From: an uncultured Dietzia sp.
GTDB taxonomy: Bacteria; Actinomycetota; Actinomycetes; Mycobacteriales; Mycobacteriaceae
Direction of reading: 5' to 3'
Assembly: GCF_937873725.1 (NCBI RefSeq)
Contig: NZ_CALMYY010000066.1
Coordinates: forward strand, 16,889 to 80,888
DNA: 64,000 nucleotides
A program made the translations under genes and the position numbers. Shown here in pieces: positions 7,468-41,661 of the stretch. The notes beneath the pieces were generated by a model. That model did no database searches. It saw nothing but the letters and a program-made list of their open reading frames with translations, and was not told where the DNA came from. Within the stretch, counting starts at the first letter, position 1; each line of letters begins with the position of its first letter.

Positions 7468-7468
7468 G

Positions 7469-10745: not shown

Positions 10746-10775
10746 GGTGCTCTCCAGCGTCGAGGGGTCGGGAGG

Positions 10776-15701: not shown

Positions 15702-15721
15702 CCGGGAGGGGCCGGTCCGCG

Positions 15722-16417
15722 TCAGTCGGGGAGGCGCCAGTCCACCGGCGCGGCCCCGAGCCGCGCGAGCTCGTGGTCCGCCCGGCTGAACGGCCGGGAA
15801 CCGAAGAACCCCCGCGACGCCGAGAGCGGCGACGGGTGCGCGGAGGCGATGACGGGGGTCCGCCCGAGCGCGGGCGCGAGCGACTGTGCGTCGCGGCCCC
15901 AGAGGATCGCCACCAACGGCCCGTCCCGCTCCACCAGGGCCTCGATCGCGCGCAGCGTGACGGCCTCCCACCCCTTGCCCCGGTGGGAGCCTGACTCGCC
16001 GGGGGTCACCGTGAGCACCCGGTTGAGCAGGAGCACTCCGGCGCGCGTCCAGGCGGTGAGGTCGCCGTGCGGTGGCGTGGGAAGTCCGAGGTCGTCGGTG
16101 AACTCGCGGTGGATGTTGACCAGGCTGCGCGGCAGCGGGCGGACGTCCCGGTCGACCGAGAAGCTCAGCCCGACGGCGTGCCCCGGGGTCGGGTAGGGGT
16201 CCTGCCCCACGATCAACACCCGGACGTCGTCGAACGGTTGGGTGAACGCCCTGAGCACCCTGTCCGCCGCGGGCAGGTATCCGCGGCCCGCGGCGTCCTC
16301 CTCGCGCAGGAAGTCGCCCATCCGACGGATCCGGCCCTCGACCGGCGCCAGCGCGCGCGCCCACCCGGGATCGAGTACCTCGCCGGACGACCATGGGTCC
16401 GGCTGGTGCGCGTCCAC
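15722..16417 (-). CDS. ung: Uracil-DNA glycosylase
   Basis: 231-aa family 1 uracil-DNA glycosylase. Catalytic [17 protein letters not shown] (about residues 71-87, Asp in the water-activating loop) and the DNA-intercalation motif [13 protein letters not shown] (about 196-208) are intact. The GTG at 16417 lies 4 nt after the gamma-carbonic anhydrase stop and begins close to the conserved N-terminal WA-L region; no better start is visible. It is convergent with the PaaG-like gene (20-nt gap). Confidence 0.95.
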
Positions 16418-28021: not shown

Positions 28022-28924
28022 TCAGGCCGGCCGCCGCCCCTCCACCAGTCGCCCGAGGGCCCACGGCAGGCTGCTCACGCTGGGCTGGCGGACCGCCGCC
28101 ACGAGGTCCCCGTCGCGCGGATCCACCCGCACCACCTGGACCCCGGAGCGCCGCAGGTCGCGGTACGGCCTCGGGTCGGGGTAGGACACCACGTCGAGTC
28201 CCAGCCCGCGGATCTCGCGTCCGAACGGGGACCGTCCGTCGAGCGTGGCCACCGGGGTGTCGGGGAGCGCGCCCGTACCCACGACGACGACGAGGGCCTC
28301 CACCCCCAACCTGCGCTGTCCCCGGGTCCACGCGTCGAGCGCCTCCTCGGCGGCCTCCGCCGCCGGGTCCGGATCGCGCCCCACCGCGTCGGCCACCAGA
28401 TCGAGGTGACGGCGCCATCCCGGCCGGCCGGCGGGGTCCACCATCACGGCCGCGAGCTGTTCGAACCCGCGGAGCTGGGCCTCGGTGGGGTCGGCGGCGG
28501 CGAGGGCGAACCCGTCGACCCCGAACGGCAGCAGCGAGCGCAGGCTCGGCAGGCCCGGACCACCCCAGTCGGGTGCGGGCGGTGCGGCGTGGTCCCGCCA
28601 GGGCCTGCGCCCCGTCCCGTCCGCCGCCCAGGCGGCCACCGGTTCCCGCCCGAGGGCGAGCAGGACGTCGAGGTCGGCGGACGAGAGCGTGATCACGCGC
28701 CGGACCGGCGAGTCGGGGGTGGGGGTACGGATCGGACTGGGGGGCGCGAGCGGGTCGCTCGTCGAGACCGTCGGGCTCGTCGTCGTGGGGTCCCCGCCCG
28801 TCCCGCACGCGGTGAGCCCCACGAGACCGAGACCGACCCCGACCGCGGCACGCAGCAGCGTACGGCGGTCAGGGCCGGCGGCGGGGCGGGACGGCCCCGG
28901 GGAGGACAGGGGTGACCGCGGCAC
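28022..28924 (-). CDS. Secreted periplasmic-binding-protein-like lipoprotein
   Basis: 300-aa protein with a Tat-like signal ([13 protein letters not shown], about residues 19-31) and a perfect lipobox LTAC (Cys40), then a Thr/Ser/Pro-rich linker and a domain resembling iron-siderophore/cobalamin-type (FecB/TroA fold) binding proteins: [23 protein letters not shown] (about 76-98). No ABC permease or ATPase gene is adjacent, so ligand and transporter are unknown. It is convergent with the IclR gene (16-nt gap) and 51 nt downstream of the aldehyde dehydrogenase gene on the same strand. It could be the last gene of that operon or separate. The GTG at 28924 is the likely start. Confidence 0.7.
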
Positions 28925-28975: not shown

Positions 28976-30346
28976 TCAGACCCGGTGGACCAGCTTCTTG
29001 TTGGAGAACTCGTCCAGGCCGAACCGTCCCAACTCCCGCCCGACGCCCGAGGTCTTGACCCCGCCGAAGGGCATGTCGGGAGCGCTCTTGATGGTGGTGT
29101 TGATGCCGACCATCCCGGATTCCAGACGCTCCGCCACGTCCTGGACGCGGGCGGGGTCGCCCCCGAACACCGCGGCACCGAGCCCGAACGGGCTGTCGTT
29201 GGCGATCTCCACCGCCTCGTCGGCCGAGGCGACGCGGTGCACGACCGCCACCGGGCCGAACAGCTCCTCGCGGTAGGCCCTCATGTCCGGGGTGACGTCG
29301 GTGAGGACCGTCGCCGGGTAGTAGGCGCCCTCGCCCTCGGGGACCTCTCCGCCGAGATGGACGGTGGCACCCTTCGCCACCGCGTCCGCCACCTGCTCGG
29401 CCAGCTCGGAGCGTGCCTCGGCCGACGACATGGGTCCCATCCGCGTGGCCGGGTCCGCCGGGTCGCCCAGCGTCCACTGCCGGGCCTTGTCGAGGAAGGC
29501 CGCCAGGAACTCGTCCCACACGGGGTCCTCGACGAGGATCCGCTTGGACGAGGTGCAGGCCTGGCCGGCGTTGGCGAAGCGCCCGGTGGCGGCCGCGGAC
29601 GCCGTCGCGGTGACATCCGCGTCCCCGAGCACGATGAGGGGATCCGACCCTCCCAGCTCCAGGACGCACTTCTTGAGGTTCTCCCCCGCCTGCCTGCCCA
29701 CGGCCTCCCCGGCCTTCTCCGACCCGGTCAGCGAGACGCCCCGGATCGCGGGGTGCGCGATGACCCGGCCCAGCTGCCCGCTGGTGGCGAAGAGGTTCTG
29801 GTAGACCCCTACCGGCGCGCCGGCGGCGAGGAGGATCTCCTCCATCACCAGCGCCTCCTGCGGGCAATTGCGGGCGTGCTTGAGCAGGATGGTGTTCCCC
29901 AACAACAGGTTCGGGGCGACGAACCGGGCGACCTGGTAGTACGGGAAGTTCCACGGCATGATCCCGAGCAGGGCGCCGATGGCCTCGGTCCGCACCACCG
30001 CCCGCCCCGGTCCGGAGATGTCGAGCACCTCCTCCTCGAGGAACCCCCGGGCCGTCGTGGCGTAGTACTCGTAGATCCGTGCGGCCAGGTCGACCTCGCC
30101 GAGGGCCTGGGTCACCGGCTTGCCCATCTCGAGGGTCATCAGCTCGGCGAGCTCCTGCTTCCGCTCGCGGTAGAGGTCCGCGACGCGTTGCAGGACCGCC
30201 GCGCGCTCGGACACCTCCGTCCGGCGCCAGTCGCGGTAGGCCTCGTCGGCCCGACCGACGGCGGCGTCGACCTCGGCGTCGCTGACCGCGTCGTAGCGGG
30301 CGACGATCTCCCCGGTGCGGGGGTCGGTGGTGGCGTATCTGCTCAT
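28976..30346 (-). CDS. NAD(P)-dependent aldehyde dehydrogenase (succinate-semialdehyde/6-oxohexanoate type)
   Basis: 456-aa aldehyde dehydrogenase. Cofactor-site PWNFP (131-135), general base Glu230 in LELGGSDP and catalytic Cys264 in NAGQACTSSKR are all present. The short N-terminus and sequence resemble succinate-semialdehyde dehydrogenases, which act on omega-oxo-acids. Within this operon the fitting step is 6-oxohexanoate to adipate, as ChnE does in cyclohexanol degradation; that substrate is inference from context. The ATG overlaps the stop of the upstream alcohol dehydrogenase gene by 4 nt, so the two successive oxidation steps are translationally coupled. Confidence 0.88.
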   Translation of the reverse strand: MSRYATTDPRTGEIVARYDAVSDAEVDAAVGRADEAYRDWRRTEVSERAAVLQRVADLYRERKQELAELMTLEMGKPVTQALGEVDLAARIYEYYATTARGFLEEEVLDISGPGRAVVRTEAIGALLGIMPWNFPYYQVARFVAPNLLLGNTILLKHARNCPQEALVMEEILLAAGAPVGVYQNLFATSGQLGRVIAHPAIRGVSLTGSEKAGEAVGRQAGENLKKCVLELGGSDPLIVLGDADVTATASAAATGRFANAGQACTSSKRILVEDPVWDEFLAAFLDKARQWTLGDPADPATRMGPMSSAEARSELAEQVADAVAKGATVHLGGEVPEGEGAYYPATVLTDVTPDMRAYREELFGPVAVVHRVASADEAVEIANDSPFGLGAAVFGGDPARVQDVAERLESGMVGINTTIKSAPDMPFGGVKTSGVGRELGRFGLDEFSNKKLVHRV

Positions 30347-31413
30347 GTGTCCTGTCCTTTCAGCACGATGCGGCCGGTGACCCCGCCGCGGACCAGTCTG
30401 TCGAGGGAGTCGACCACGCCCGCCAGGTCCAGGGCGGCCTCCGTCACCGGGATCCCGGGGATCGCTCCCCGCCGCGCCAGATCGACGGCCTCACGCATCT
30501 CGTCGAGGGTTCCCACGAAGCTTCCCTCGATCGTGAGCATCTTCAGGGCCAGCAGCGCCGTGGGGATCGTGATCTCCCCGCCGAACAGACCCACCTGGAC
30601 CATGTGGCCGCCCTTGGCCAGCACGTCGAAGGCCAGCGAGGCCGTCGGTCCGTTGTTGACGAAGTCGACCACCGCCCCGACCGGTCCGCCGGTGGCCTCG
30701 AGGAGCAGGTCGCGGGTGCCGTCACCGTCCGAGCGGACCGTCCCGGTCGCCCCCAGCTCACGCGCGGCGGCGAGGTTCGCGTCCGACACGTCCACCGCCA
30801 CGATCGCGCGATGCCCCAGGGCGTGGAGCGTGGCCACCGCGGTGAGCCCCACACCGCCGACCCCGATCACCACGACGGGCTCGTCGGCCGGCCGCGGGAG
30901 GACCTTCTTCGCCGCGCTGTACGCGGTCAGGCCCGAACACGCGATGGTCGCGGCCCAGCTCGGGTCCAGCCCCTCGACGTCCACCAGGTAGCGCGGATGC
31001 GGAACCACGACCTGCTCGGCGTACCCCCCGGAACGGGCGACCCCGATGTTGCGTCCCCGCGGGCAGGCGTTCTCCCGGCCGGCCTCGCAGACCGCGCACT
31101 CACCGCACCCCGTCCACGGATAGACCAGCCGTGTCCGCCCGACCTCGGCGCCGCTCGCGTCGGGGCCGACCGCCTCCACCACGCCCACGATCTCGTGACC
31201 CATCACGAGCGGGTACGGCACGCCCCTGTCGGTGAGGTGCATCCTCCCCCGGCCACCCAGGTCGTAGTAGCCCTCGCGGAGATGGGTATCGGTGTGGCAG
31301 ACCCCCGAGCGCAGGACCCGCAACCGGACCTCGGTGCCGGTCGGATCGGGGGTGGGGAGCTCGATGTCCGACAGGGTCGGGTCGCCGGGCTCGGTGATGG
31401 CGAACGCTCGCAT
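30343..31413 (-). CDS. Zinc-dependent alcohol dehydrogenase
   Basis: 356-aa medium-chain dehydrogenase. Catalytic-zinc ligands are Cys39 (GVCHTD), His73/Glu74 (MGHE) and Cys160 (IACSG). The structural zinc is held by Cys103, 106, 109 and 117 (CGECAVCEAGRENAC). The Rossmann loop is GVGGVG (184-189). Placed between a Baeyer-Villiger monooxygenase and an aldehyde dehydrogenase, it most likely oxidises the hydroxyacid released from the lactone (6-hydroxyhexanoate, ChnD role), though secondary alcohol to ketone is an alternative. It overlaps the downstream gene by 4 nt and is 40 nt after the monooxygenase gene. Confidence 0.88.
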   Translation of the reverse strand: MRAFAITEPGDPTLSDIELPTPDPTGTEVRLRVLRSGVCHTDTHLREGYYDLGGRGRMHLTDRGVPYPLVMGHEIVGVVEAVGPDASGAEVGRTRLVYPWTGCGECAVCEAGRENACPRGRNIGVARSGGYAEQVVVPHPRYLVDVEGLDPSWAATIACSGLTAYSAAKKVLPRPADEPVVVIGVGGVGLTAVATLHALGHRAIVAVDVSDANLAAARELGATGTVRSDGDGTRDLLLEATGGPVGAVVDFVNNGPTASLAFDVLAKGGHMVQVGLFGGEITIPTALLALKMLTIEGSFVGTLDEMREAVDLARRGAIPGIPVTEAALDLAGVVDSLDRLVRGGVTGRIVLKGQDT

Positions 31414-31453
31414 GGTTCCTCGCTTCTCGGTGGGGGTGGTCGGGGTCGGCGCG

Positions 31454-33109
31454 TCAGGCGACGGCGGCTCGGGCCGGCTCGGTGATCCGCAGGCCCCGGT
31501 AGCCGTTCTCGCGGACGTCCGCCAGGATCTGCCGGTACATGCCGAGGCCGCCCAGGAAGAACATGACGGTCCGCTTCTTGCCCGGGATGTTGGCGCCGAA
31601 GATCCACGAGGCCGTCTTGGGGAAGAGCGTCATGTGCGCGATCTCCTCGCAGGTGGCGGTCCACCCCGTCTCCGCCTCGCTCGTCGCCTCGACCACCGCC
31701 CGGCCGCGCGCGACGGCGCTCTCGATCAGCTCGGCGACGTACTCCACCTGCGTCTCGATGCTGGGCAGGAGGTTGGTGAAGGGCCCGTTCGGGCCGAGGA
31801 TCATGAACATGTTCGGGAAGTTCGCGGTCGTGATCCCGAGGTAGCTGGTCGGGGCGTCGGCCCAGTGCTCGTTGATGTGCAGGCCACCGCGGCCCCGCAG
31901 GTCCATGGCGCGGTAGTTGCCGTCCACCGCGTCGAAGCCGGTCGCGAACACCAGGATGTCGACCTCGTGCTCGACGCCGTCCGCCGTCCGCACACCCCTC
32001 GGGGTGATCCGGACGATCGGGTTCTCCTTCACCGGGACGAGCGAGACGTTGTCCCGGTTGAACGTCTCGTAGTAGCCCTCGTTGCACAGGGGCCGCTTGG
32101 CGTAGGGCTCCGTCGGGGTGAGGGCGCGCGCCGTCTCCGGATCCTCGACGATCTCCGCGATCTTCGACCGGATGAACGTCGCCGCCGCCTCGTTCGCCTC
32201 GGGGTTCGTGGCGATGTCGCTGAACGTGCCGAACATGAAGTGGAATCCGTTGCCCCGGTCCCACGCCTGCTGGAACACCTGCCGGCGCTGCTCTTCCGTC
32301 ACGCTTCCGGCCTCGATCGCGCTCTCCTCGAACCCGAACGCGACCGACGAGCCGCGCACCTGGGTCCAGATCGCGTCGAAGTTCTTCTTGGTCTCGGCCA
32401 CCTCCGCCGGGTCGACGGGGCCGTTGCCCGACGGGACACAGTACTGCGGCGACCGCTGGAACACCGTGAGGTTCTCGGCCGTCTTCGCGGCCGCGATGAT
32501 GAACTGGGTGCCGGTGGAGCCGGTCCCGATCACACCGACCCTCTTCCCGGCGACGTCCAGGTCCTCGGGCCAGGCGTTGGTGTGGACCAGCCTGCCCTCG
32601 AAGTGGTCCATCCCGGGGATGTCCGGCATGTTGGTCTTGGCGAGCAGCCCCAGGCCGTTGACGAGGTACGTGCAGGTGAACTCCTCGCCGGCGGCGGTGC
32701 GCACGGTCCAGCGGTCGCGCGACTCGTCCCACGCCGCCCCGGTCACCTCGGTGTCGAGCCGGATGTCCTTCATGAGGTCGTAGCGCTCGACCACATGGTG
32801 GATGTACGCGAGGATGTCCTCCTGCTCGAGGTACCGCGTGGTCCAGTCGTACTCGCGCAGCAGGTCGTCGTCGAACGAGTACCGGTAGACAAAGCTCTCG
32901 GTGTCGGACTTCGCGCCCGGGTAGCGGTTGAAGAACCAGGTCCCGCCCACCCCGGAGCCCTTCTCCAGGACGCGGACCCGCAGGCCCTGCTCGTTGCGGA
33001 GCTTGTGGAGCGAGTAGAGGCCGGCGAAGCCCGCGCCCACCACGACGGCGTCGAAGTCGGTGTCGGTCGGGTCGGCGGTGGGCGCAGCGGCGCGGATCGG
33101 GGTGGTCAT
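31454..33109 (-). CDS. Baeyer-Villiger monooxygenase, cyclohexanone monooxygenase type
   Basis: 551-aa class B flavoprotein monooxygenase inserting oxygen next to a ketone carbonyl with NADPH and O2. FAD motif GAGFAG (25-30), the Baeyer-Villiger fingerprint FEGRLVHTNAWP (170-181) and NADPH motif GTGSTG (195-200) are exact. Segments such as YAKRPLCNEGYYETFNRDNV, ATGFDAVDGNY, LGPNGPFTNL and WIFGANIPGKK match remembered Acinetobacter cyclohexanone monooxygenase closely, so a cyclic-ketone substrate is likely. AGGAGG precedes the ATG at 33109 by seven nt. It lies in an operon with a hydrolase upstream and two dehydrogenases downstream. Other cyclic or methyl ketones remain possible. Confidence 0.93.
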   Translation of the reverse strand: MTTPIRAAAPTADPTDTDFDAVVVGAGFAGLYSLHKLRNEQGLRVRVLEKGSGVGGTWFFNRYPGAKSDTESFVYRYSFDDDLLREYDWTTRYLEQEDILAYIHHVVERYDLMKDIRLDTEVTGAAWDESRDRWTVRTAAGEEFTCTYLVNGLGLLAKTNMPDIPGMDHFEGRLVHTNAWPEDLDVAGKRVGVIGTGSTGTQFIIAAAKTAENLTVFQRSPQYCVPSGNGPVDPAEVAETKKNFDAIWTQVRGSSVAFGFEESAIEAGSVTEEQRRQVFQQAWDRGNGFHFMFGTFSDIATNPEANEAAATFIRSKIAEIVEDPETARALTPTEPYAKRPLCNEGYYETFNRDNVSLVPVKENPIVRITPRGVRTADGVEHEVDILVFATGFDAVDGNYRAMDLRGRGGLHINEHWADAPTSYLGITTANFPNMFMILGPNGPFTNLLPSIETQVEYVAELIESAVARGRAVVEATSEAETGWTATCEEIAHMTLFPKTASWIFGANIPGKKRTVMFFLGGLGMYRQILADVRENGYRGLRITEPARAAVA

Positions 33110-33156
33110 GGTGTCCTCCTGGGTGGGTCTGGTCTGTGGTGGTCGGTGGTGGGTGG

Positions 33157-34110
33157 TCAGCGGGCGTACCAGGCGGCGACGGCGGCGATCTCGTCGTCGG
33201 CGGCCCGGGTCCTGCCCGCGTTGAAGGGGTAGACGTGCTGCTGGCCCTCGCCGATGGAGAGCGTGGAGTCGACCCTGGCCGCCGTGGCCAGGTCGTGCAG
33301 TCGGGTCGCGTTGTCCAGCAGCGACTCGACCGAACCGGCGGTGATGTACAGGCGGGGGAAGCCGGTGAAGTCCGCGTAGAGCGGGTTGGCCAGCGGCGTG
33401 GTGGGGTCGACCGAGTCGCCCAGGACGCCGGCGATCATGCCCTCGAGGAGCCCGCGGGTGATGAGCGCGTCGGTGGCGTCGTTGGTCTCCAGGGTCACGC
33501 CCTTGTTCTCCATGTCGAGCCACGGGGAGAACGCGATCACCGCGCCGGGCAGCGGGCCACCCCGCTCCTTCAGCGCGAGGGCGGTGGCCACGGCGAGGTT
33601 GCCGCCGGCGGAGTCACCGATGGTGGTGATGGCCTGCGGGGAGATGCCGGAGTCGACCAGGCCGTGGAAGACCGAGACTGCGTCCTCGAGCCCGGCGGGA
33701 TGCGGGTGCTCGGGAGCGAGACGGTAGTCGAGCACGAAGGACTGGACCCCGAGGGCCTTGGCGACGTGGGCCGCGAGCTTGCGGTGGCTCGACGCCGATC
33801 CCACGGAGAAGCCACCACCGTGGGTGTACAGCAGGACCTGTCCGGCATCGGAACCGACGGGGCGGCACCAGATGCCGGGGACCCCGCCGACGACGCCCTC
33901 CTCGTAGGTGACGTCCGTCGGCTCGGCCGTGGGCTGGTGCCACTCGTCGAAGATGCTGCGGAACAGACGGACGGTGAGGCCCTCGGTGGTGGCGAGGATC
34001 TCGGACCAGTCGGTGTAGAGGTCCTTCAGCGGATCGTTCTCGGTGGCGGCCTGTGTGGTGGTGGCCTGCTCGGTGGTTGCCTGCTCGGTGGTTGCCTGCT
34101 CGGTGGTCAT
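33157..34110 (-). CDS. Alpha/beta hydrolase, HSL-type esterase/lactonase
   Basis: 317-aa hormone-sensitive-lipase family hydrolase. Oxyanion motif HGGG (97-100), nucleophile elbow GDSAG (Ser167) and C-terminal His292 (QQHVYPF) are present. Where relatives have Asp of the triad (AGSDE-type), this protein reads AGSVESLLDN, so Glu262 or Asp266 may take the role. First gene of the operon with the monooxygenase, it would hydrolyse the lactone or ester product (caprolactone hydrolase ChnC, or AcmB-like esterase). The first 20 residues are pentapeptide repeats (TTEQA) not seen in the family. The ATG at 34110 has GGAAGGA upstream. Confidence 0.88.
   Translation of the reverse strand: MTTEQATTEQATTEQATTTQAATENDPLKDLYTDWSEILATTEGLTVRLFRSIFDEWHQPTAEPTDVTYEEGVVGGVPGIWCRPVGSDAGQVLLYTHGGGFSVGSASSHRKLAAHVAKALGVQSFVLDYRLAPEHPHPAGLEDAVSVFHGLVDSGISPQAITTIGDSAGGNLAVATALALKERGGPLPGAVIAFSPWLDMENKGVTLETNDATDALITRGLLEGMIAGVLGDSVDPTTPLANPLYADFTGFPRLYITAGSVESLLDNATRLHDLATAARVDSTLSIGEGQQHVYPFNAGRTRAADDEIAAVAAWYAR
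34064..34108. repeat. 15-bp tandem repeat, three copies, in the hydrolase 5' coding end
   Basis: Three head-to-tail copies of a 15-bp unit (plus-strand gcctgctcggtggtt), the last with one mismatch, preceded by a degenerate fourth copy at 34049-34063. Because the unit is a multiple of three, copy changes keep the frame and add or remove the pentapeptide TTEQA at the N-terminus of the hydrolase. Confidence 0.9.
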
Positions 34111-34181
34111 GGCGGCGTCCTTCCTTCCGGTCCCGGGCACCTCCCGGGGGTGTGATGCAGAACACTAGGATCGGCCGCCGG

Positions 34182-34203
34182 TCCGAAAGTGTGCCGTTTC
34201 GGA
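34182..34203. promoter_or_regulatory. Perfect inverted repeat, candidate operator of the ketone operon
   Basis: TCCGAAA and TTTCGGA form a perfect 7-bp inverted repeat with an 8-bp spacer. A second pair, GTGT...ACAC, overlaps its right half (34189-34207). It lies 72-93 bp upstream of the hydrolase-monooxygenase operon and about 190 bp upstream of the divergent GAF/Fis regulator, where an activator site would be expected. No known consensus is claimed. Confidence 0.45.
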
Positions 34204-34326
34204 ACACCGGCCCCGGCTCTGACAACGGGACCGGCCGAAAGCGACGACGTGAGCCACCCCACATGCGGTGATGCCGCGGCCGCAACAATGCCTCCCGATC
34301 CGGCAACGGCGGCCTCCCGACACCGG

Positions 34327-34356
34327 GTGACACCGGTGTGACGGGTGGCACATAAT
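34327..34356 (+). promoter_or_regulatory. Probable promoter of the GAF/Fis regulator, with a CRP-like site in the spacer
   Basis: GTGACA (34327-34332) and CATAAT (34351-34356) are separated by 18 bp, a good -35/-10 pair. The predicted start, about 7 nt later, falls on an ATG (34363). TGTGACGGGTGGCACA (34337-34352) resembles the CRP/GlxR consensus TGTGA-N6-TCACA with one mismatch and occupies the spacer, so a bound CRP-like protein would probably repress. Confidence 0.45.
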
Positions 34357-34362
34357 GGCGTC

Positions 34363-34395
34363 ATGGCGAGAACATCAGGGCTGGTCGCGCCATGA
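34363..34395 (+). CDS. Candidate 10-codon upstream ORF overlapping the regulator start
   Basis: ATG to TGA, encoding MARTSGLVAP. Its ATG coincides with the predicted transcription start, so it would be read from a leaderless mRNA. Its stop overlaps the regulator ATG by 4 nt (ATGA), the geometry of translational coupling. Evidence is purely positional; such short leaderless ORFs are common in actinobacteria. Confidence 0.35.
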   Translation: MARTSGLVAP

Positions 34396-36133
34396 CGGTC
34401 GATCGTCCGGGCGTCAGTGTGGAGGAGATCCGGTCAGCCAAGGAGGCGCTCATCCGCGCCGGGTCCCTCAGCGATGCGGGTCCGGCCCCGGAGTGGCTGC
34501 TCGCCGAGATCGACCGCAGCTGGCGCCGGTCGATCAGCGCGGGTGCGGCCCGGGGATCCGGCGAGTTCCTCTACCGCGACGAGGTCGACCCGGACAGTGA
34601 GCTCAGACGCGCTGCGCGCCCGATCCTCGACCGACTCGCGTCGACGGTCCAGGATCTGGGAACCGCGATATTCCTGGCGGACGCCGGCGGCCAGGTCGTG
34701 GACCGCCGGATCGCCGACCCCGGAGATCGTGGACGCTTCGACCGGGCGTGCGCCGCCGAGGGGTTCCTCTTCTTCGAGACGACCATCGGTACCAACGGGC
34801 TGGGTACCCCGATCGAGGAGAACACCTCGGTCTTCGTGCGGGGCCCCGAGCACTTCAACGAGGCACTGGAGGGATTGGCCTGCGCGGGGGTACCGATCCC
34901 CCACCCGATCACCGGACGGGCGATGGGCTCACTGTCGCTCGCGGCGCCCGCCGACAGCGCCGAACGGATGATGCTCCCCTGACCCGCGAGGGGGCCCGGG
35001 CGATCTCGGAGCAACTGTCCTCGGGCGAGCTCCTGCGGGACTCGGCGCTGGTCGGGGCGTATCGGCGAGCACGCGGCCGTGGCCCCGTCGTGGTGCTCGA
35101 CGCCGAGACGGTGATCGCCAGCGTCTCGGGGGCGTCCCTCCTCAGCACCGAGGCGCATGCGCAGTTGTGGGAGGCGCTGGTCACCGGTGCCCCCGGCCAC
35201 GGCCGACGGCTTCTGGAGCTCGAACTCGACGGCTCCCCGATGCGCCTCATCACGCACCCCCTGGGCGACCACGATCGGCCGGCGTTCGCCGTGGAGATCC
35301 TCGACCGTGGCGCGCCGCGCCTTCGCGGCCGCCCGGCCTCGCACGGCGCGACCGCCACCGTGTCGCCCGCCGGCCACACGACCGGCCCGGTTCTCGTCAC
35401 CGGACCCGCCGGGTCGGGGCGGTATCACGCGGCGCGGCAGCTTCTCCGGCACAACGGACACCCCGAGCCCGTGGTGGTGTCCGCCGCGCGGCTCCGAACG
35501 GACGGCCCCGAGCTGGGTGCCGCGTTGAGCGGTCTCGACTCCGGTGGTGCCGTGATCGTCAGACGGTTGGAGGAACTGCCGACCGCCGAGCGAGCAGTGC
35601 CCGGGCTCCTCCGGGACGCCGCGGAACGTACGCCCGGTGCACGCCTGGTGGCGACCGTCGACCCCGAACGCTCTCCCGACGACCTCGGCGAGGAACTGGG
35701 CCGATGGGGCACCCCGCTCGCCGTTCCGGCCCTCTCGTCCCGGCAGGGAGAGCTTCCGCGGCTGGCCGAGGCGATCCTGGGCGAACTCGACGCCCCCCTG
35801 AGGCCGGTCCTGTCCGCGGCCACCCACCAGGCGCTACTGCGGTGGCACTGGCCGGGAAACGTCGCGGAGTTCCGCCGCGTGCTCCTCGACCTCGCCGACG
35901 AGTTCCCGGGACGGACGGTCGAGCCGTTCCACCTTCCCGAGAGGATGTGGGAGGCCGCAGAACGTCGGCGACTGAGCCGCATCGAGTCCGTGCAACGCAC
36001 GGAGATCGTCGCGGCCCTGCGCGAGAGCGGCGGCAACCGATCGGCGGCGGCGGCGCTCCTCGGCATCGGCCGCACCACCCTCTATCGCAAGTTGCGCGAA
36101 CTCCGGATCGACCAGGACAGCCTGTCCGCGTGA
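34392..36133 (+). pseudogene. GAF/AAA+-like/Fis transcriptional regulator, frameshifted
   Basis: An AcoR/MimR-like activator split between two frames. Codons from 34392 encode an N-terminal GAF-type sensor (EIDRSWRRSI, FFETTIGTNGLGTPIEE, PHPITGRAMGSLSLA) and stop at 34980-34982. The following sequence, LTREGARAISEQL onward, continues in the next frame through a degenerate AAA+ core (TGPAGSGRYHAARQLL, RWHWPGNVAEFRR) to a Fis-type helix-turn-helix (NRSAAAALLGIGRTTLYRKLREL). One missing C in the run 34976-34979 explains everything: one extra C gives an unbroken protein of about 580 aa. It lacks the sigma-54 contact motif GAFTGA, as usual in actinobacteria. Divergent from the ketone operon it probably activated. 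Real lesion or sequencing error cannot be told apart here. Confidence 0.8.
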
Positions 36134-36170
36134 GGACTCCCGACCGGTCCCCGGGTCCTGTCGAGCAGGC

Positions 36171-37076
36171 CTAGCACTCCCCCGTGAGCTCGGAGAGCAG
36201 GTCGAGGACGGTCTTCACCGCCGGGTTCGCCTCGCGGCCTCTCCAGGCGGCCCGGAGGTGGACATCGGGCATGACCGCCACCTCGTCCTCCACTGGGGGT
36301 ACGTAGCGGATGTGGGGATCGACGACCCTGCGCGCCACGGACCCCAGGGTGAGGTGGGCGCCCACCTCGGCGCTCACGAGGGCGAGCGCGGTCTGCGTGT
36401 CCGGGGCGACCTGCGCGAAATCCGGGACGACCCGCGCCGCCTGCGCCAACCGGCGCGCCCGATCCACGAGAACGGACCCCTGGTGTTCGGGCAGGGAGAT
36501 CAACCTCAGGTCCGCCAGCTCGGCAGCGGGCACCTCCGCGTCGCCCGCCAGTCGATGGGTCGCCGGCAGCGCCCAGATGAGCCCGTCGCGCTCCACCACC
36601 CGACTGTCCAGGCCTGCCGGGATCACGTCCCAGCGACCCAGGGCCACGTCGACGTCCCCGGACATCAGCAGGCGGAGCGCGGGCTGGGCGTAGGTCTGAC
36701 TCGCCAGCGCCAGTTCGATCCCGGGCCTGTCCGACCGCACCCGCCGCGCGAGTTCGGCGACCAGCTCGTAGCTCGACACCCCCGCGAACGCGAGTCGAAC
36801 CCGCCCGGTCTCCCCGCGCGCCGCGGAGCGAGTCGCCTCCTCGGCGCGCCGCAGCGCGCGGAGGACCTCGCGGGCCGGGCCGATCAGGGCGGCTCCGGAG
36901 GGGGTGAGCTCCACCGCTCGCGTGCTCCGGTCGAACAGGGTCGTCCCGAGTTCCCTCTCCAGCGCCTGGATCGTCCGGGTGAGCGGTGGTTGGGACATGT
37001 GGAGCCGCTCGGCCGCACGCCGGAAGTGCAGCTCCTCGGCCACGGCCAGAAAGGCGCGGATCTGCGCGACGTCCAT
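36171..37076 (-). CDS. LysR-family transcriptional regulator
   Basis: 301-aa LysR-type regulator. The N-terminal helix-turn-helix AFLAVAEELHFRRAAERLHMSQPPLTRTIQALERELG (about residues 8-44; key residues AxRLHMSQPPLT) is typical, and the remainder is a periplasmic-binding-protein-like effector domain. Divergent from the acyl-CoA dehydrogenase operon across 112 bp containing a T-N11-A site, so it most likely controls that operon in response to a pathway acid or CoA ester. Convergent with the GAF/Fis regulator (37-nt gap). Confidence 0.9.
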   Translation of the reverse strand: MDVAQIRAFLAVAEELHFRRAAERLHMSQPPLTRTIQALERELGTTLFDRSTRAVELTPSGAALIGPAREVLRALRRAEEATRSAARGETGRVRLAFAGVSSYELVAELARRVRSDRPGIELALASQTYAQPALRLLMSGDVDVALGRWDVIPAGLDSRVVERDGLIWALPATHRLAGDAEVPAAELADLRLISLPEHQGSVLVDRARRLAQAARVVPDFAQVAPDTQTALALVSAEVGAHLTLGSVARRVVDPHIRYVPPVEDEVAVMPDVHLRAAWRGREANPAVKTVLDLLSELTGEC

Positions 37077-37150
37077 GGTCGCCTTCCCCTCTCGCTGGCG
37101 CAGCCCGCCAGCGGTGATGCCCCCAAGGTATCATCGTCGCGGCAAAAAGT

Positions 37151-37167
37151 ATTGGACTCGTATCAAT
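37151..37167. promoter_or_regulatory. LysR-type T-N11-A operator candidate
   Basis: ATTG and CAAT arms enclose 9 bp (ATTGGACTCGTATCAAT), containing the LysR box T-N11-A. It sits 22-38 bp before the acyl-CoA dehydrogenase ATG and 75-91 bp from the lysR start, in a rare AT-rich patch, as expected for the binding site of the divergent regulator. Confidence 0.5.
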
Positions 37168-37188
37168 CCGGTGTGGAGAGTGTCACAC

Positions 37189-38364
37189 ATGTACACCGGA
37201 AACCCAGCGGTCCCCGACGACGTCTTCGCCGAGGTCCTCAGTCAGATCAGCAACTTCGTCCGCACCCGCGTGGTCCCGCGCGAGTCCGAGATCATGGCGA
37301 CAGACTCCATCCCCGAGGACCTGCGCGAGCAGGCCGCGGACATGGGTCTGTTCGGCTTCGCGATCCCGGACGAGTGGGGAGGGCTCGGGCTCGACCTCGT
37401 CCAGGACGTCGAGCTCGCGATGGAGCTGGGGTACACCAGCCTGTCGTTCCGCTCGATGTTCGGCACCAACAACGGCATCGCCGGCCAGGTTCTGGTGGGA
37501 TTCGGGACCACCGGGCAGCAGGAGCGGTGGCTCCCGGGGATCGCCTCCGGGGACGTCGTGGCCTCCTTCGCCCTCACCGAGCCGGGTGCGGGCTCCAACC
37601 CCGCGGGCCTGCGCACGAGCGCGCGTCCCGACGGCGAGGACTTCGTGATCGACGGCGCGAAGCAGTTCATCACCAACGCCACCATCGCCGACCTCTTCGT
37701 CGTCTTCGCCAGGATCCCCGCCACCGACGGGGGCGACGGCACGATCGCGGTCTTCCTCGTTCCCGCCGACGCGCCGGGCGTCGAGGTGGGCCCCAAGGAC
37801 GCGAAGATGGGCCAGGAGGGCTCCCGGACGGCGACCGTGACCTTCTCGGGTGTGCGGGTCGGCCCGGAGTCCCTCGTGGGCGGCGATGCGGCATCCGGGT
37901 ACCGGGCCGCGATGACCTCGCTCGCCCGGGGCCGGATCCACGTCGCGGCCCTCGCCGTCGGATGCGCCCAGCGGGCCCTCGACGAGGCCGTCGCCCACGC
38001 GGTCACCGCCACCCAGGGCGGAACCGTCGTCGGCGACTTCCAGCTCGTCCAGGCGATGATCGCCGACATCCAGACCGGCGTCATGGCCGGCCGGGCGATG
38101 GTGCGGGAGGCGGCCCGGCTGTGGGTCACCGACCAGGACCGGCGCATCGCCCCCTCTGCGGCGAAGCTGTTCTGCACGGAGATGGCCGGCAAGGCCGCCG
38201 ACCTCGCGGTCCAGGTCCATGGTGGCACCGGCTACATGCGAGATGTGCCCGTCGAGAGGCTCTACCGCGACGTCCGCCTGCTCCGCCTCTACGAGGGGAC
38301 GAGCGAGATCCAGCGCCTCATCGTGGGCGGCGGGCTGGTCCGGGCCGCGAAGAGGGCGTTGTGA
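37189..38364 (+). CDS. Acyl-CoA dehydrogenase
   Basis: 391-aa FAD-dependent acyl-CoA dehydrogenase forming the trans-2-enoyl-CoA. FAD/substrate segments FALTEPGAGSNP (about 124-135) and FITNATIAD (about 160), HGGTGYMRDVPVERLYRD (about 344-361), and catalytic base candidate Glu369 in LYEGTSEIQ are present. GGAGAG eight nt upstream supports the ATG at 37189 over a GTG three codons earlier. First gene of a four-gene operon with 1- to 4-nt overlaps. With a CaiB-type transferase, hydratase and hydroxyacyl dehydrogenase it makes a near-complete beta-oxidation spiral lacking only thiolase. Adipyl-CoA is a plausible substrate by context. Confidence 0.92.
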   Translation: MYTGNPAVPDDVFAEVLSQISNFVRTRVVPRESEIMATDSIPEDLREQAADMGLFGFAIPDEWGGLGLDLVQDVELAMELGYTSLSFRSMFGTNNGIAGQVLVGFGTTGQQERWLPGIASGDVVASFALTEPGAGSNPAGLRTSARPDGEDFVIDGAKQFITNATIADLFVVFARIPATDGGDGTIAVFLVPADAPGVEVGPKDAKMGQEGSRTATVTFSGVRVGPESLVGGDAASGYRAAMTSLARGRIHVAALAVGCAQRALDEAVAHAVTATQGGTVVGDFQLVQAMIADIQTGVMAGRAMVREAARLWVTDQDRRIAPSAAKLFCTEMAGKAADLAVQVHGGTGYMRDVPVERLYRDVRLLRLYEGTSEIQRLIVGGGLVRAAKRAL

Positions 38365-39578
38365 TGCTGCCGCTGGAGGGAATCACGGTCGTCGCCTTCG
38401 AGCAGGCCGTGGCGGCGCCACTGGCCACCCGGAACCTCGCCGACCTCGGCGCCCGGGTCATCAAGGTGGAGCGGGTCGACGGGGGCGACCTCGCCCGGGG
38501 CTACGACCACGTGGTCAACGGGACCGGGGCGCACTTCGTCTGGCTCAACCGGGGCAAGGAGTCCCTGGCCGTCGACCTGAAGAGCGAGGAGGGACGGGAC
38601 GCGGCCACCCGCCTGGTGGCCGGCGCCGACGTGGTGGTCGAGAACCTCGCACCGGGCGCCGCCACCCGCCTCGGCGTGGACGCCCCGACCCTGAGGGCGG
38701 AGCGCCCCGGGTTGATCGTGGCCTCGCTCTCCGGGTACGGATCCGGCGGGCCCCTGGGCTCGCGGAAGGCCTACGACATGCTGATCCAGGCCGATTCGGG
38801 CCTCATCTCGCTCACCGGCACCCCCGAGCACCCGGCCAAGACCGGCATCCCCACCGCGGACATCGCCTCCGGGATGTACCTCGCGCAGTCGATTCTCGCA
38901 GCCCTGCTGCGCCGGGCGCACACCGGAGAGGGGGCCACCATCGAGGTCTCGATGCTGGAGGCCACGGTCGAGTGGATGGGCCACGCCCTCTACACCCAGC
39001 TGGCGACCGGCCGGCAGCCGGAACGACGGGGCGTGGGACACAGCGCGATCGCCCCCTACGACCGCTACCCCACCGCCGACGGCGAGATCCTCATCGGGGT
39101 CCAGACCGACTCCGGGTGGCGCTCGCTGGTCACCGAGGTCCTCGGCGCCCCCGGGCTCGCCGTGGACCCACGGTTCCTCACCAACGTCGACCGGGTCGCC
39201 CACCGGGCCGAGTGCGACACCGAGGTCGCCCGCCTGACACGACGGTGGTCGACGGCCGACCTGGAGCACCGGCTCTCCGCGGCCGGGGTCCCGGCGGCCA
39301 GGCTCCGGGACCTCGCGCACGTCGTGGACCACGAGCAGCTCCGCGCGCGCGACCGCTGGCGGGAGATCCAGATCGAGAACGGAACCGTGCGGGCGCTGCT
39401 GCCCCCCGGGACCTTCTCCGACGTCGAGGCCCCGATGGGCGCGGTTCCCGCGCACGGTGAACACACCCGCCGTCTGCTGGCGGAATCCGGCCTGGACGCG
39501 GCGGCCGTCGAGTCCGCCCTGGCGAACGGCGTGGCCTTCCAGGCCCACGTCGACGTCCGCCGGGGGGCACGGTCATGA
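38364..39578 (+). CDS. CaiB/BaiF family (type III) CoA transferase
   Basis: 404-aa formyl-CoA-transferase-like enzyme. The N-terminal MLPLEGITVVAFEQAVAAPLATRNLADLGARVIKVE is the family start, and the catalytic Asp lies in GSRKAYDMLIQA (about residue 139). These enzymes move CoA between carboxylic acids without ATP, and several members use dicarboxylates (e.g. the glutarate/HMG-succinate transferase). Here it would activate the acid substrate of the operon. The ATG shares one base with the upstream stop; the 3' end overlaps the hydratase gene by 4 nt. Confidence 0.9.
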   Translation: MLPLEGITVVAFEQAVAAPLATRNLADLGARVIKVERVDGGDLARGYDHVVNGTGAHFVWLNRGKESLAVDLKSEEGRDAATRLVAGADVVVENLAPGAATRLGVDAPTLRAERPGLIVASLSGYGSGGPLGSRKAYDMLIQADSGLISLTGTPEHPAKTGIPTADIASGMYLAQSILAALLRRAHTGEGATIEVSMLEATVEWMGHALYTQLATGRQPERRGVGHSAIAPYDRYPTADGEILIGVQTDSGWRSLVTEVLGAPGLAVDPRFLTNVDRVAHRAECDTEVARLTRRWSTADLEHRLSAAGVPAARLRDLAHVVDHEQLRARDRWREIQIENGTVRALLPPGTFSDVEAPMGAVPAHGEHTRRLLAESGLDAAAVESALANGVAFQAHVDVRRGARS

Positions 39579-40321
39579 CCGGGGGGTTCACCGTCCTCGA
39601 CGTCGACCTGCTCCCCGACCGGGTGGTGGTCCTACTCGACCGCCCGGAGGCGCGCAACGCCATCGACCAGGCGATGGTCGACGAGCTGCACCGGGTGTGC
39701 GACATGCTCGAACGTGACCCTCGCATCCTGCTGCTCGGAGGCAAGGGCGGGGTGTTCGCCGCCGGTGCGGACATCGCCCAGCTTCGCCACCGGCGCCGGG
39801 AGGACGCCCTCCGCGGCATCAACTCGGGGTTGTTCGACCGCATCCGGCGGCTGCCGATGCCGGTCATCGGGCTCCTGGACGGCCACGCCCTCGGCGGTGG
39901 GGCCGAGCTCGCCTACGCCTGCGACCTCCGGATCGGGACACCCCGGCTGCGGATGGGCAACCCGGAGCCCGGGCTGGGCATCCTCGCGGCCGCGGGGGCG
40001 ACCTGGCGCCTGGGCGAGCTGGTCGGCGAGCCCCTGGCCAAGGAGATCCTGCTGGCGGGACGCGTCCTCAGCGGCGACGAGGCGTTGGCGATGCGGCTGG
40101 TCAGCGAACTCGTGGAACCCGAGGAGCTCCTCGCCGCCGGAGGGCGCTGGGCGGATCGCATCTCCCGGCAGTCCGCGCTGGCGGTGCGGTTGACCAAGGC
40201 GGCGTTCCACGCCCCGCGGGAGGCCCACCCCTACATCGACGACCTGACCCAGGCCGTGCTGTTCGAGACCGAGGAGAAGGAGGAGCGGATGACCGCCTTC
40301 CTGGAGAAGAGGAAGAAATGA
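39575..40321 (+). CDS. Enoyl-CoA hydratase
   Basis: 248-aa crotonase. Unlike the PaaG-like protein near 15 kb it keeps both catalytic glutamates, Glu111 (GGGAELAYACD) and Glu131 (GNPEPGLG), with the oxyanion segment GGVFAAGADI (59-68). It hydrates the trans-2-enoyl-CoA from the acyl-CoA dehydrogenase. The chain ends in a lysine-rich tail EKRKK. Overlaps its neighbours by 4 nt on both sides. Confidence 0.92.
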   Translation: MTGGFTVLDVDLLPDRVVVLLDRPEARNAIDQAMVDELHRVCDMLERDPRILLLGGKGGVFAAGADIAQLRHRRREDALRGINSGLFDRIRRLPMPVIGLLDGHALGGGAELAYACDLRIGTPRLRMGNPEPGLGILAAAGATWRLGELVGEPLAKEILLAGRVLSGDEALAMRLVSELVEPEELLAAGGRWADRISRQSALAVRLTKAAFHAPREAHPYIDDLTQAVLFETEEKEERMTAFLEKRKK

Positions 40322-41160
40322 CCGTGCCAGAACGCGTCGGCGTCTACGGCGGAGGACGCATGGGAGCAGGTATCGCCTACGCCTTCCTCGCCGCCGGATC
40401 CAGGGTGACCGTCATCGAGGCGACGGGAGAGGCCGCCTCGGCCGCACGGGCCCGACTCGCCGCCTCGGTGACCACGGCCTCCGAGCGCGGGCACCTCGAC
40501 CGCGATCCGGCCGAGCTCCTGGCCCGCGTGGAGGTGTCCGATGACCCCTCGGCGCTGGAAGGATGCGAGCTCGTGGTGGAGGCGGTACCCGAGAGCCCGG
40601 CCCTCAAGGCGGGGGTCCTCGCCGCCATCGAGGCCGCCGCGCCCGACGCGTGGATCGGCACCAACACCTCCAGCCTGTCGATCGACGACCTCGCCGGGTC
40701 GCTGGCCAGGCCGGAGCGTCTCGTCGGCCTCCACTTCTTCAACCCGGTGCCCGCCAGCGCGCTGGTGGAGATCGTGGTGGGCGGGAAGACCGATCCCGCG
40801 CTCGTCGAGCGCGCCCGGACCTGGGTGGGTGGCCTCGGCAAGACGGCCGTCTCGGTGACCGACTCCCCCGGGTTCGCCTCGTCCCGTCTCGGGGTCATGC
40901 TGGCGCTGGAGGCCATGCGCATGGTCGAGGAGGGTGTGGCCTCGGCCGGGGACGTCGACACCGCCATGGAGCTGGGTTACCGGCACCCGATGGGCCCGCT
41001 GCGCACCACCGACCTCGTCGGACTGGACGTGCGGCTGGCCATCGCGGAGTACCTGGAAGAGCGCCTCGGCCCACGGTTCGCCCCGCCCCGGATCCTGCGG
41101 GACAAGGTGGCCGCCGGCGATCTCGGTAAGAAGACCGGCCGGGGATTCTTCTCCTGGTGA
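40318..41160 (+). CDS. 3-hydroxyacyl-CoA dehydrogenase (PaaH/Hbd type)
   Basis: 280-aa single-function dehydrogenase of the 3-hydroxybutyryl-CoA family. NAD motif GGGRMGAGIA (11-20), substrate segment NTSSLSI (116-122), catalytic His139 in LHFFNPVP, and C-terminal KKTGRGFFSW end. It oxidises the 3-hydroxyacyl-CoA to the 3-oxoacyl-CoA; a thiolase is not encoded nearby. PaaH/DcaH members act on 3-hydroxyadipyl-CoA, which would fit the neighbouring ketone operon. Last gene of the operon, followed by a strong hairpin. Confidence 0.92.
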   Translation: MTVPERVGVYGGGRMGAGIAYAFLAAGSRVTVIEATGEAASAARARLAASVTTASERGHLDRDPAELLARVEVSDDPSALEGCELVVEAVPESPALKAGVLAAIEAAAPDAWIGTNTSSLSIDDLAGSLARPERLVGLHFFNPVPASALVEIVVGGKTDPALVERARTWVGGLGKTAVSVTDSPGFASSRLGVMLALEAMRMVEEGVASAGDVDTAMELGYRHPMGPLRTTDLVGLDVRLAIAEYLEERLGPRFAPPRILRDKVAAGDLGKKTGRGFFSW

Positions 41161-41179: not shown

Positions 41180-41217
41180 CGAGACCCCCCGACTTCGATC
41201 GAAGTCGGGGGGTCTCG
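41180..41217. terminator. Bidirectional terminator hairpin
   Basis: A perfect 38-bp palindrome (two 19-nt arms, centre at TCGA), arms rich in C and G, lies 20 nt after the 3-hydroxyacyl-CoA dehydrogenase stop and 9 nt beyond the 3' end of the minus-strand tRNA-Glu. It can terminate transcription from both sides. No U-tract follows, as is common in high-GC actinobacteria. Confidence 0.8.
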
Positions 41218-41225
41218 GTCTGTGG

Positions 41226-41298
41226 TACCCCCGATGGGATTCGAACCCACGCTACCGCCGTGAGAGGGCGGCGTCCTAGGCCGCTAGACGACGGGGGC
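41226..41298 (-). tRNA. tRNA-Glu (anticodon CTC), CCA encoded
   Basis: 73-nt cloverleaf read on the minus strand: acceptor GCCCCCG paired with CGGGGGT, anticodon stem CCGCC/GGCGG with loop CTCTCAC (anticodon CTC, reading GAG), T-arm GTGGGTTCGAATCCCAT, discriminator A. CCA follows directly in the DNA. Identical over all 73 nt to the copy 160 nt upstream. Confidence 0.97.
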
Positions 41299-41419
41299 CT
41301 GTTCGCTCACCCGTGACACGAGAGCCGATCGGGCTCCGCGTTCCGGGCTTCATCACACTAGCCGGTCGTTCCCCAACCCCCAAATCGCGGGTCGGCCGTC
41401 GCGCCGGGGCGGAACACGG

Positions 41420-41453
41420 GAGAAGGCCCGGAGCGGATGCTCCGGGCCTTCTC
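41420..41453 (-). terminator. Hairpin terminator after the second tRNA-Glu
   Basis: 15-bp perfect stem (arms GAGAAGGCCCGGAGC and its complement) with a 4-nt loop, starting 5 nt past the 3' end of the upstream tRNA-Glu on the minus strand. It separates the two tRNA-Glu genes into distinct transcription or processing units. No U-tract. Confidence 0.75.
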
Positions 41454-41458
41454 TGTCG

Positions 41459-41531
41459 TACCCCCGATGGGATTCGAACCCACGCTACCGCCGTGAGAGG
41501 GCGGCGTCCTAGGCCGCTAGACGACGGGGGC
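41459..41531 (-). tRNA. tRNA-Glu (anticodon CTC), second identical copy, CCA not encoded
   Basis: Same 73-nt sequence as the downstream copy, including anticodon loop CTCTCAC. The bases after the discriminator read CGA rather than CCA, so CCA must be added by tRNA nucleotidyltransferase. It lies between tRNA-Gln and a strong hairpin. Confidence 0.97.
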
Positions 41532-41589
41532 CCGAGGACGCGGATCCCCCCGGGGGGATCCACTGTGCGAACGTTCCATGAACGCTCAG

Positions 41590-41661
41590 CTGGCCTACCA
41601 GGACTCGAACCTAGAACGACGGTACCAGAAACCGCTGTGTTGCCAATTACACCATAGGCCA
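41590..41661 (-). tRNA. tRNA-Gln (anticodon CTG)
   Basis: 72-nt cloverleaf on the minus strand: acceptor TGGCCTA/TAGGCCA, D-arm with GGTGTAATTGGCAACAC, anticodon stem GCGGT/ACCGT with loop TTCTGGT (anticodon CTG, reading CAG), T-arm with GGTTCGAGTCC, discriminator G. CCA is not encoded. It is the first of three tRNA genes downstream of gltX. In actinobacteria this tRNA is usually charged with Glu and then transamidated. Confidence 0.96.

Follow-up and report, generated by a model that had tools for sequence, protein, structure and literature searches.

Gene clusters of the chn type (Acinetobacter, Rhodococcus), which act on cyclohexanol and cyclohexanone, reportedly encode the enzymes ChnA to ChnE along with an AraC-type regulator, ChnR. 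Such clusters usually end at adipate, and the use of this acid by the host is left to unnamed beta-oxidation genes. Cyclohexanone is a solvent and adipate a building block of nylon. The present study concerns an island of approximately 12 kb in a Dietzia chromosome, lying within a 64 kb stretch of DNA that was analysed as a whole (the window), where an operon with a cyclohexanone-type Baeyer-Villiger monooxygenase (BVMO; here cyclohexanone monooxygenase, CHMO) is accompanied by a second operon predicted to act on adipate. The window is part of a 3.1-Mb Dietzia genome (G000) of the same species as the metagenome-assembled genome (MAG) UBA5065, in which the island is found as locus L009. A crystallised CHMO, TmCHMO of Thermocrispum municipale, is described as efficient on cyclohexanone and cyclobutanone and inactive on cyclopentadecanone and progesterone (PMC5213842, accessible text). 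In Pseudomonas jessenii GO3, genes for a CaiB-type CoA-transferase, a thiolase, a 3-hydroxyacyl-CoA dehydrogenase and an acyl-CoA dehydrogenase (ACAD) are caprolactam-induced and were assigned to adipate by the authors, and the hydratase and IclR genes that lie between these four do not appear in the induced list within the accessible part of that report (PMC6061476).

The first operon of the island is predicted to convert cyclohexanone, or a close cyclic ketone, to adipate, and the second to carry adipate on to 3-oxoadipyl-CoA, a reading that we regard as quite likely. In this scheme CHMO would oxidise cyclohexanone to epsilon-caprolactone, an HSL-type hydrolase would open the lactone to 6-hydroxyhexanoate, and a zinc-dependent alcohol dehydrogenase (Zn-ADH) and an aldehyde dehydrogenase (ALDH) would oxidise the hydroxy acid to adipate. 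A type III transferase would then pass CoA to adipate from a donor such as succinyl-CoA; the ACAD, with Arg88 holding the distal carboxylate, would form 2,3-dehydroadipyl-CoA, which the hydratase and dehydrogenase would take to 3-oxoadipyl-CoA. The final cleavage to acetyl-CoA and succinyl-CoA would fall to a thiolase encoded outside the island. The initial annotation had proposed the same sequence of ketone, lactone, hydroxy acid, adipate, adipyl-CoA and 3-oxoadipyl-CoA, and this is supported by the type of CHMO, by synteny and by the thiolases linked to related clusters. The features of the island and its border are as follows.

28976..30346, minus strand: ALDH, predicted 6-oxohexanoate dehydrogenase (ChnE role); Pfam Aldedh, 476 bits
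30343..31413, minus strand: Zn-ADH, predicted 6-hydroxyhexanoate dehydrogenase (ChnD role); ADH_N and ADH_zinc_N
31454..33109, minus strand: cyclohexanone-type BVMO (CHMO); 73% identity to TmCHMO over 525 residues
33157..34140, minus strand: HSL-family hydrolase, predicted lactone hydrolase (ChnC role); Abhydrolase_3, with GDSAG and HGGG
34190..34206, no strand: operator-like inverted repeat TGTGCC-N5-GGAACA between hydrolase and regulator, from a motif scan
34392..34982, plus strand: AcoR-type (GAF/Fis) regulator, N-terminal part with GAF domain (Pfam GAF), frame ending at TGA
34982..36133, plus strand: AcoR-type regulator, C-terminal part in another frame, with AAA lid and Fis-type helix-turn-helix (AAA_lid_14, HTH_8); start approximate
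36171..37076, minus strand: LysR-family regulator, divergent, presumed to serve the second operon; HTH_1 and LysR_substrate
37128..37157, plus strand: conserved box GTATCA-N15-GTATTGGAC between LysR and ACAD; single match in the window
37189..38364, plus strand: ACAD, predicted adipyl-CoA dehydrogenase; Arg88 corresponds to the carboxylate arginine of glutaryl-CoA dehydrogenase (GCDH)
38364..39578, plus strand: type III (CaiB/BaiF) CoA-transferase, predicted to activate adipate; Pfam CoA_transf_3, 366 bits
39575..40321, plus strand: enoyl-CoA hydratase, predicted 2,3-dehydroadipyl-CoA hydratase; Pfam ECH_1, 144 bits
40318..41160, plus strand: 3-hydroxyacyl-CoA dehydrogenase, predicted to form 3-oxoadipyl-CoA; NCBIfam matches given below
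41181..41216, no strand: perfect palindrome of 36 nt lying between the final gene of the island and tRNA-Glu, a possible terminator
41223..41298, minus strand: tRNA-Glu (CTC), island boundary, found with ARAGORN; near-identical second copy at 41458

All of the genes listed in the initial annotation were recovered in place from open reading frames, Pfam and NCBIfam, and they form the minus-strand and plus-strand operons that it described. Both are tightly packed, with gaps of 47, 40 and -4 nt (hydrolase/BVMO, BVMO/Zn-ADH, Zn-ADH/ALDH) in the former and overlaps of 1, 4 and 4 nt (ACAD/CaiB, CaiB/hydratase, hydratase/3-hydroxyacyl-CoA dehydrogenase) in the latter. The two operons and their two regulator genes lie between a gene for a substrate-binding protein (nt 28022-28924) and the tRNA-Glu gene at nt 41223.

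The assignment of the BVMO to the cyclohexanone type holds up well. Its best match is TmCHMO (PDB 5m0z; 919 bits), followed by other cyclohexanone monooxygenase chains at 720-731 bits. The island proteins show the motifs typical of their families, among them, in the BVMO, the sequence FEGRLVHTNAWP, which fits the BVMO fingerprint FxGxxxHxxxWP. A BVMO for linear ketones, or of the phenylacetone type, was considered and rejected, since phenylacetone and steroid monooxygenases reach only 454-486 bits as against 919 for TmCHMO. The Zn-ADH has the motifs CHTD, EGYYDLGG, GHE and GCGEC, and a relative at 46% identity is found in a CHMO cluster of the Burkholderiales (see below). The best NCBIfam models for the ALDH are semialdehyde dehydrogenases, all below cut-off among the matches listed. 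No short-chain dehydrogenase/reductase (SDR) is present among the island genes, in agreement with the earlier statement that ChnA is missing from the island, although no ChnA search of the remaining genome was made. Within Dietzia, CHMO was found only in the two genomes of this species out of 23, and the best BVMO in the other 21 reaches 45%. In MAG UBA5065 the CHMO gene (L009, nt 10001-11605) lacks 16 residues in frame that are present in both the window and TmCHMO. Three more BVMO-like genes lie within 11 kb of one another elsewhere in the host genome (G000:C127, L122).

A close counterpart of the arrangement lies in the genome that holds the TmCHMO gene. One sampled genome (G403) encodes a CHMO that shows no difference from TmCHMO over 531 residues, and can therefore almost certainly be assigned to T. 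municipale or a closely related organism. Its locus (L146) runs in the order ADH (minus), ALDH (plus), regulator (minus, one frame of 584 aa), hydrolase (plus) and CHMO (plus), followed by LysR (minus, 61%), ACAD (plus, 81%), CaiB (plus, 70%) and a thiolase (plus). The best models for this thiolase are those of 3-oxoadipyl-CoA thiolase, at 528.5 and 527.5 bits, which do not reach the cut-offs of 605 and 597. No relative of the hydratase or of the hydroxyacyl-CoA dehydrogenase was found in the 19.9 kb fetched around it. The accessible text of the 2016 paper on TmCHMO mentions three upstream genes and nothing downstream (PMC5213842).

The same two halves meet again in Proteobacteria. A scan of contigs for CHMO gave 52 loci, of which 14 outside Dietzia, with at least 58% identity, were followed. 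Twelve of these 14 proteobacterial genomes have an ACAD scoring 349-371 bits to that of the window, while the next tier stops at 248 bits; the subfamily was not found in the remaining two (L010, L041). In six cases (L011, L012, L015, L018, L019, L022) the ACAD lies within 20 kb of CHMO on the same contig, and in another six (L013, L014, L016, L017, L020, L021) it is on a different contig. All six linked loci include relatives of CaiB and the hydroxyacyl-CoA dehydrogenase, five a hydratase (not L011) and four a thiolase (not L015 or L018). The association also extends to whole genomes in a sample of 149 Pseudomonas, where CHMO occurs in 5, the ACAD in 18 and both in 4 (4/5 versus 14/144; Fisher P = 7e-4, or 5e-3 without the centre genome). 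The initial annotation had suggested looking for genomes that carry the two operons together; relatives of most of their genes do lie together in the TmCHMO genome, and the ACAD subfamily and a CaiB lie near CHMO in 6 of the 14 proteobacterial genomes. Genome-level association within the order of the host is taken up below.

In a Burkholderiales MAG a hydrolase and CHMO are followed, after some other genes, by ADH, ALDH, CaiB, ACAD, hydratase, dehydrogenase and thiolase; further along there is another set of ACAD, CaiB, dehydrogenase and thiolase. In a Pseudomonas locus (L217) the genes run ACAD, IclR, hydratase, dehydrogenase, thiolase, CaiB, two electron transfer flavoprotein (ETF) subunits and a sigma-54-type activator, after which come an SDR (a possible ChnA), CHMO and ALDH. 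The first six reproduce the gene order of ORF4277-4282 of P. jessenii GO3 (ACAD, IclR, hydratase, dehydrogenase, thiolase, CaiB), as far as that cluster is set out in the accessible report, and the genes for CaiB, thiolase, dehydrogenase and ACAD measure 1238, 1202, 1541 and 1154 bp in P. jessenii and 1239, 1203, 1533 and 1155 bp in L217. The linked thiolase of L217 exceeds the cut-off of 3-oxoadipyl-CoA thiolase (737 vs 622). It may be added that the L217 region at nt 11604-16335 represents a CHMO cluster with its own ETF subunits, sigma-54-type activator and SDR.

These thiolases also bear on the identity of the ring. Were the natural substrate a substituted one, such as a terpenoid or methylcyclohexanone, the product would be a branched dicarboxylate. 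CHMOs are broad in what they accept, according to the accessible text of PMC5213842, and nothing here fixes the substitution of the ring; the same text, however, describes TmCHMO as preferring small ketones, the models matched by linked thiolases in relatives are for unbranched 3-oxoadipyl-CoA, and no gene of the island points to terpenes. A substituted ring is accordingly given very little weight.

A more serious question is whether the acid has six carbons or five. In the latter case the ketone would be cyclopentanone and the acid glutarate, and the second operon would resemble gcdR-gcdH-gcoT, leading to crotonyl-CoA and acetoacetyl-CoA. A LysR gene beside ACAD and CaiB is the gene set reported for P. 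putida gcdR-gcdH-gcoT (PMC6667623, accessible text), the best NCBIfam model for the window CaiB is succinate--glutarate CoA-transferase (SucGlutTfsCaiB; 247 bits, below the cut-off of 750), the ACAD shares the carboxylate arginine of GCDH, and a hydratase with a dehydrogenase of the 3-hydroxybutyryl-CoA type would fit such a route.

Arg88 of the ACAD sits in the sequence SFRSMFGTN. In an alignment of rows spanning query positions from 60 or lower to 350 or higher (identical rows dropped, near-copies kept), the column holds Arg in all 53 rows of the subfamily, and among 18 other ACAD rows it is lacking in 16 and present at a gapped spot in two. In two proteobacterial genomes, for which 30 of 35 matched places were examined (17 of the 30 having a residue in the column), the ACADs with Arg were three CHMO-linked members of the subfamily and two proteins (L255, L256) with the GCDH signature, EGTHDI or EGTHDV, and no others; Arg88 of the window aligns with the Arg of these two. 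Across 25 loci of the host Dietzia genome (3 of them unaligned at this position), Arg was seen in the column only in the window ACAD, in a paralogue on contig C99 and in one poorly aligned fragment. In GCDH the corresponding Arg interacts with the terminal carboxylate of the substrate, as described in the accessible part of PMC3169403, and the window ACAD is predicted to be able to hold a distal carboxylate in the same manner.

Judged by its sequence relationships, the ACAD is not a glutaryl-CoA dehydrogenase despite the shared arginine. A tree of 28 rows places its subfamily in one clade (100/100) apart from that of the GCDHs (100/100), some long branches outside both being flagged. It carries EGTSEIQ where GCDHs have EGTHDI/V, and it scores 138-156 bits against GCDH structures as compared with 239 bits for the best ACAD structure. 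In addition, models of 3-oxoadipyl-CoA thiolase give the best match for both of the linked thiolases scanned in relatives (L146 and L217). On these two grounds, an ACAD outside the GCDHs and thiolases of the 3-oxoadipyl type, the glutarate route is placed second and appears improbable, and a C6 acid is favoured over a C5 acid on these comparisons.

Of the other enzymes expected for adipate, a CoA-transferase for activation of the acid, a hydratase and a 3-hydroxyacyl-CoA dehydrogenase are present at the level of family. The last matches NCBIfam models for 3-hydroxybutyryl-CoA and 3-hydroxyacyl-CoA dehydrogenases, all under cut-off. As the proteins of this operon miss every NCBIfam cut-off shown, the substrate is not given by family naming alone.

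The two operons appear to have separate conserved candidate sites beside them, one for each regulator. The pattern TGTNCC-N5-GGNACA has its sole match in the 64 kb between the hydrolase and the GAF/Fis regulator (0.05 expected), and the regulator would control the ketone operon from this TGTGCC-N5-GGAACA site. A wider view is given by the order of the host, in which CHMO (E <= 1e-195) was found in 13 of 397 sampled genomes, host included. In the other 12 loci, a hydrolase relative adjoins CHMO in 11, the GAF/Fis regulator has a relative nearby in 12, and relatives of ADH (60-65%) and ALDH (57-61%) are near in the same 5. Upstream of hydrolase-CHMO the motif is present in strict form in 7 of the 12 (L144, L145, L146, L149, L150, L151, L153) and in relaxed form in 2 (L152, L154), and is absent from 3 (L147, L148, L155). 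A second strict copy was found between divergent ADH and ALDH genes in all four loci so arranged (whole-locus scan; L144 5221, L145 15108, L146 4502, L150 4725), which ties ADH and ALDH to the CHMO regulon.

For the second operon, a LysR relative at 61% occupies the same divergent place beside the ACAD in the TmCHMO genome. The box GTATCA-N15-GTATTGGAC did not occur in 100 shuffles; it was found in 14 (overlapping) of 209 loci, all in LysR-ACAD gaps of five species (the host, G403, G249, G367 and G082). LysR bound at this GTATCA-GTATTGGAC box would control the adipate operon, with a dicarboxylate or the corresponding CoA ester as its probable effector. In a scan for promoters and terminators, a single promoter-like and a single terminator-like site turned up, a yield that did not clearly exceed that of shuffled sequence.

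The initial annotation had stated that the block interrupts a region otherwise collinear with mycobacteria. The comparison was made with Dietzia only, in which 10 relatives (out of 20 with a gltX match, besides the two genomes of this species) run from leuC-IclR to the tRNAs and gltX without the island genes. Between IclR and gltX these relatives have a tRNA-Glu pair, its members separated by 1.5-3.7 kb of other DNA, and then tRNA-Gln. In the window the two tRNA-Glu copies, which are 99% alike over 81 nt, are separated by 159 bp, and the island is situated outside this pair, beyond the first copy. When nt 41223-41661 of the window are set against these relatives (L106-L115), the filler between the tRNA-Glu pair is seen to be gone. 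The site looks like a tRNA-Glu hotspot. No integrase is present among the island genes, and a search of the far end of the island gave no repeat derived from a tRNA, the sole repeat longer than 42 nt being the tRNA-Glu pair itself. An origin as foreign DNA is unsupported by composition, the G+C content of the island (0.716) being native with respect to that of the flanks (0.725).

The two operons could nevertheless be unrelated neighbours, a ketone operon and an operon for dicarboxylates in general or for some other acid, brought together by chance at the hotspot, where the stretch between the tRNA-Glu genes varies as described. Several observations weigh in this direction, or more generally against a single pathway. 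In 11 of the 12 other CHMO loci of the order the ACAD subfamily is not represented within some 10 kb, and at E <= 1e-170 the ACAD occurs in 75 of the 397 genomes, i.e. in 4 of 13 with CHMO and 71 of 384 without it (P = 0.22), so that no significant genome-level association was found in the order. Three of the five species with the LysR-ACAD box (G249, G367, G082), all Mycobacteriales, have no CHMO within the stretch fetched around LysR-ACAD; LysR-ACAD thus occurs without CHMO as a module of its own, and the two halves are separable. The host itself has a paralogous ACAD-CaiB pair elsewhere in its genome (G000:C99:41223-43555, L117; 73% and 61% identity) with the same arginine, and relatives of that CaiB (58-63% to the window CaiB) are found in 14 of the 23 Dietzia genomes, host counted. 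The window CaiB is 36% identical to the CHMO-linked proteobacterial CaiB and 37% to a GCDH-linked transferase, and for three window enzymes (hydratase, dehydrogenase and CaiB) identity to their counterparts in the proteobacterial clusters is no more than 30-38%. The absence of a thiolase from the island, already remarked in the initial annotation, is confirmed, and no thiolase of the host genome exceeds the PcaF cut-off (11 pcaF matches, best 366 of 597). This cut-off decides nothing, however, as it was passed by none of 14 control genomes and the T. municipale thiolase fails it too. Lastly, of the two regulators that the initial annotation had named, both are present, but the GAF/Fis gene is not one open frame in this assembly. 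In the same-species MAG (L009, nt 6976-8718) it is a single frame of 580 aa, and the break may be either a strain difference or a sequencing error.

Against a chance association stand the recurrence of the pairing, both beside the TmCHMO gene and in a number of Proteobacteria, with a thiolase of the 3-oxoadipyl-CoA type wherever one was scanned, and the CHMO-ACAD association across Pseudomonas genomes. Unrelated neighbours are accordingly considered unlikely, and the conversion of a cyclic ketone to 3-oxoadipyl-CoA by the two operons together is retained as the preferred reading. A looser case of proximity is seen in another genome of the order (G383; CHMO 59%), with a CaiB-ACAD pair (61% and 71%) some 23-24 kb from CHMO. 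Beside that pair lies a second, partial CHMO-like stretch (L209, nt 12953-14308).

A broader interpretation is that a unit leading from a ring to central metabolism has been put together more than once. CHMO operons would repeatedly have joined an adipate module made of a type III transferase and an ACAD with the GCDH-like arginine, in Actinobacteria and in Proteobacteria; the actinobacterial form would consist of two serial regulons (GAF/Fis at TGTTCC-N5-GGAACA, LysR at GTATCA-N15/16-GTATTGGAC), and in Dietzia it would have entered the tRNA-Glu hotspot as one transferable cassette. We are evenly divided as to whether this is correct. If true, it would reveal the natural downstream route in the host of TmCHMO and the sensor by which that host responds to adipate. 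Both in the island and next to the gene of TmCHMO, a much-used biocatalyst, genes for the downstream steps are available. The island offers a candidate subfamily of adipyl-CoA dehydrogenases (Arg88) and a candidate type III adipate CoA-transferase, and the LysR protein with its clear DNA box could serve as an adipate sensor in the recycling or production of nylon monomers.

Among the papers listed by a literature search of limited reach, none dealt with a type III adipate module attached to a CHMO cluster, which is a weak negative. The described systems each share a part of the island. The TmCHMO locus (G403, L146) is alike in its ADH, ALDH, GAF/Fis regulator, hydrolase, CHMO, LysR, ACAD and CaiB genes and in both DNA motifs, and differs in having a thiolase, in the arrangement of ADH and ALDH, and in the hydratase and hydroxyacyl-CoA dehydrogenase, which were not found in its 19.9 kb. 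ORF4277-4282 of P. jessenii GO3 share the type III CoA-transferase, 3-hydroxyacyl-CoA dehydrogenase, hydratase and ACAD assigned to adipate (PMC6061476, accessible text). Unlike the island, that cluster has a thiolase and IclR, and the accessible report links it to caprolactam, while in L217 it is linked to CHMO; between L217 and the window, the four enzymes in common reach no more than 32-45% identity. The gcdR-gcdH-gcoT glutarate cluster, as presented in the accessible text, likewise has a LysR gene beside an ACAD and a transferase (PMC6667623). It differs in that the island ACAD is not a GCDH. Among adipate genes, DcaIJ is a two-subunit CoA-transferase. The dca genes of Acinetobacter baylyi (dcaAKIJP) resemble the second operon in the beta-oxidation of dicarboxylyl-CoA, according to the accessible part of PMC12543098. 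The island differs from them in its type III transferase. With the chn clusters it has in common a CHMO, an HSL-type hydrolase, a Zn-ADH and an ALDH together in one operon, and it departs from them in being without ChnA, in having GAF/Fis (GAF/HTH_8) and LysR regulators rather than an AraC-type ChnR, and in the lower pathway attached to it. The island thus combines known chemistry in a new way, an upper pathway of the chn type being coupled to an adipate module with a type III transferase, under two regulators.

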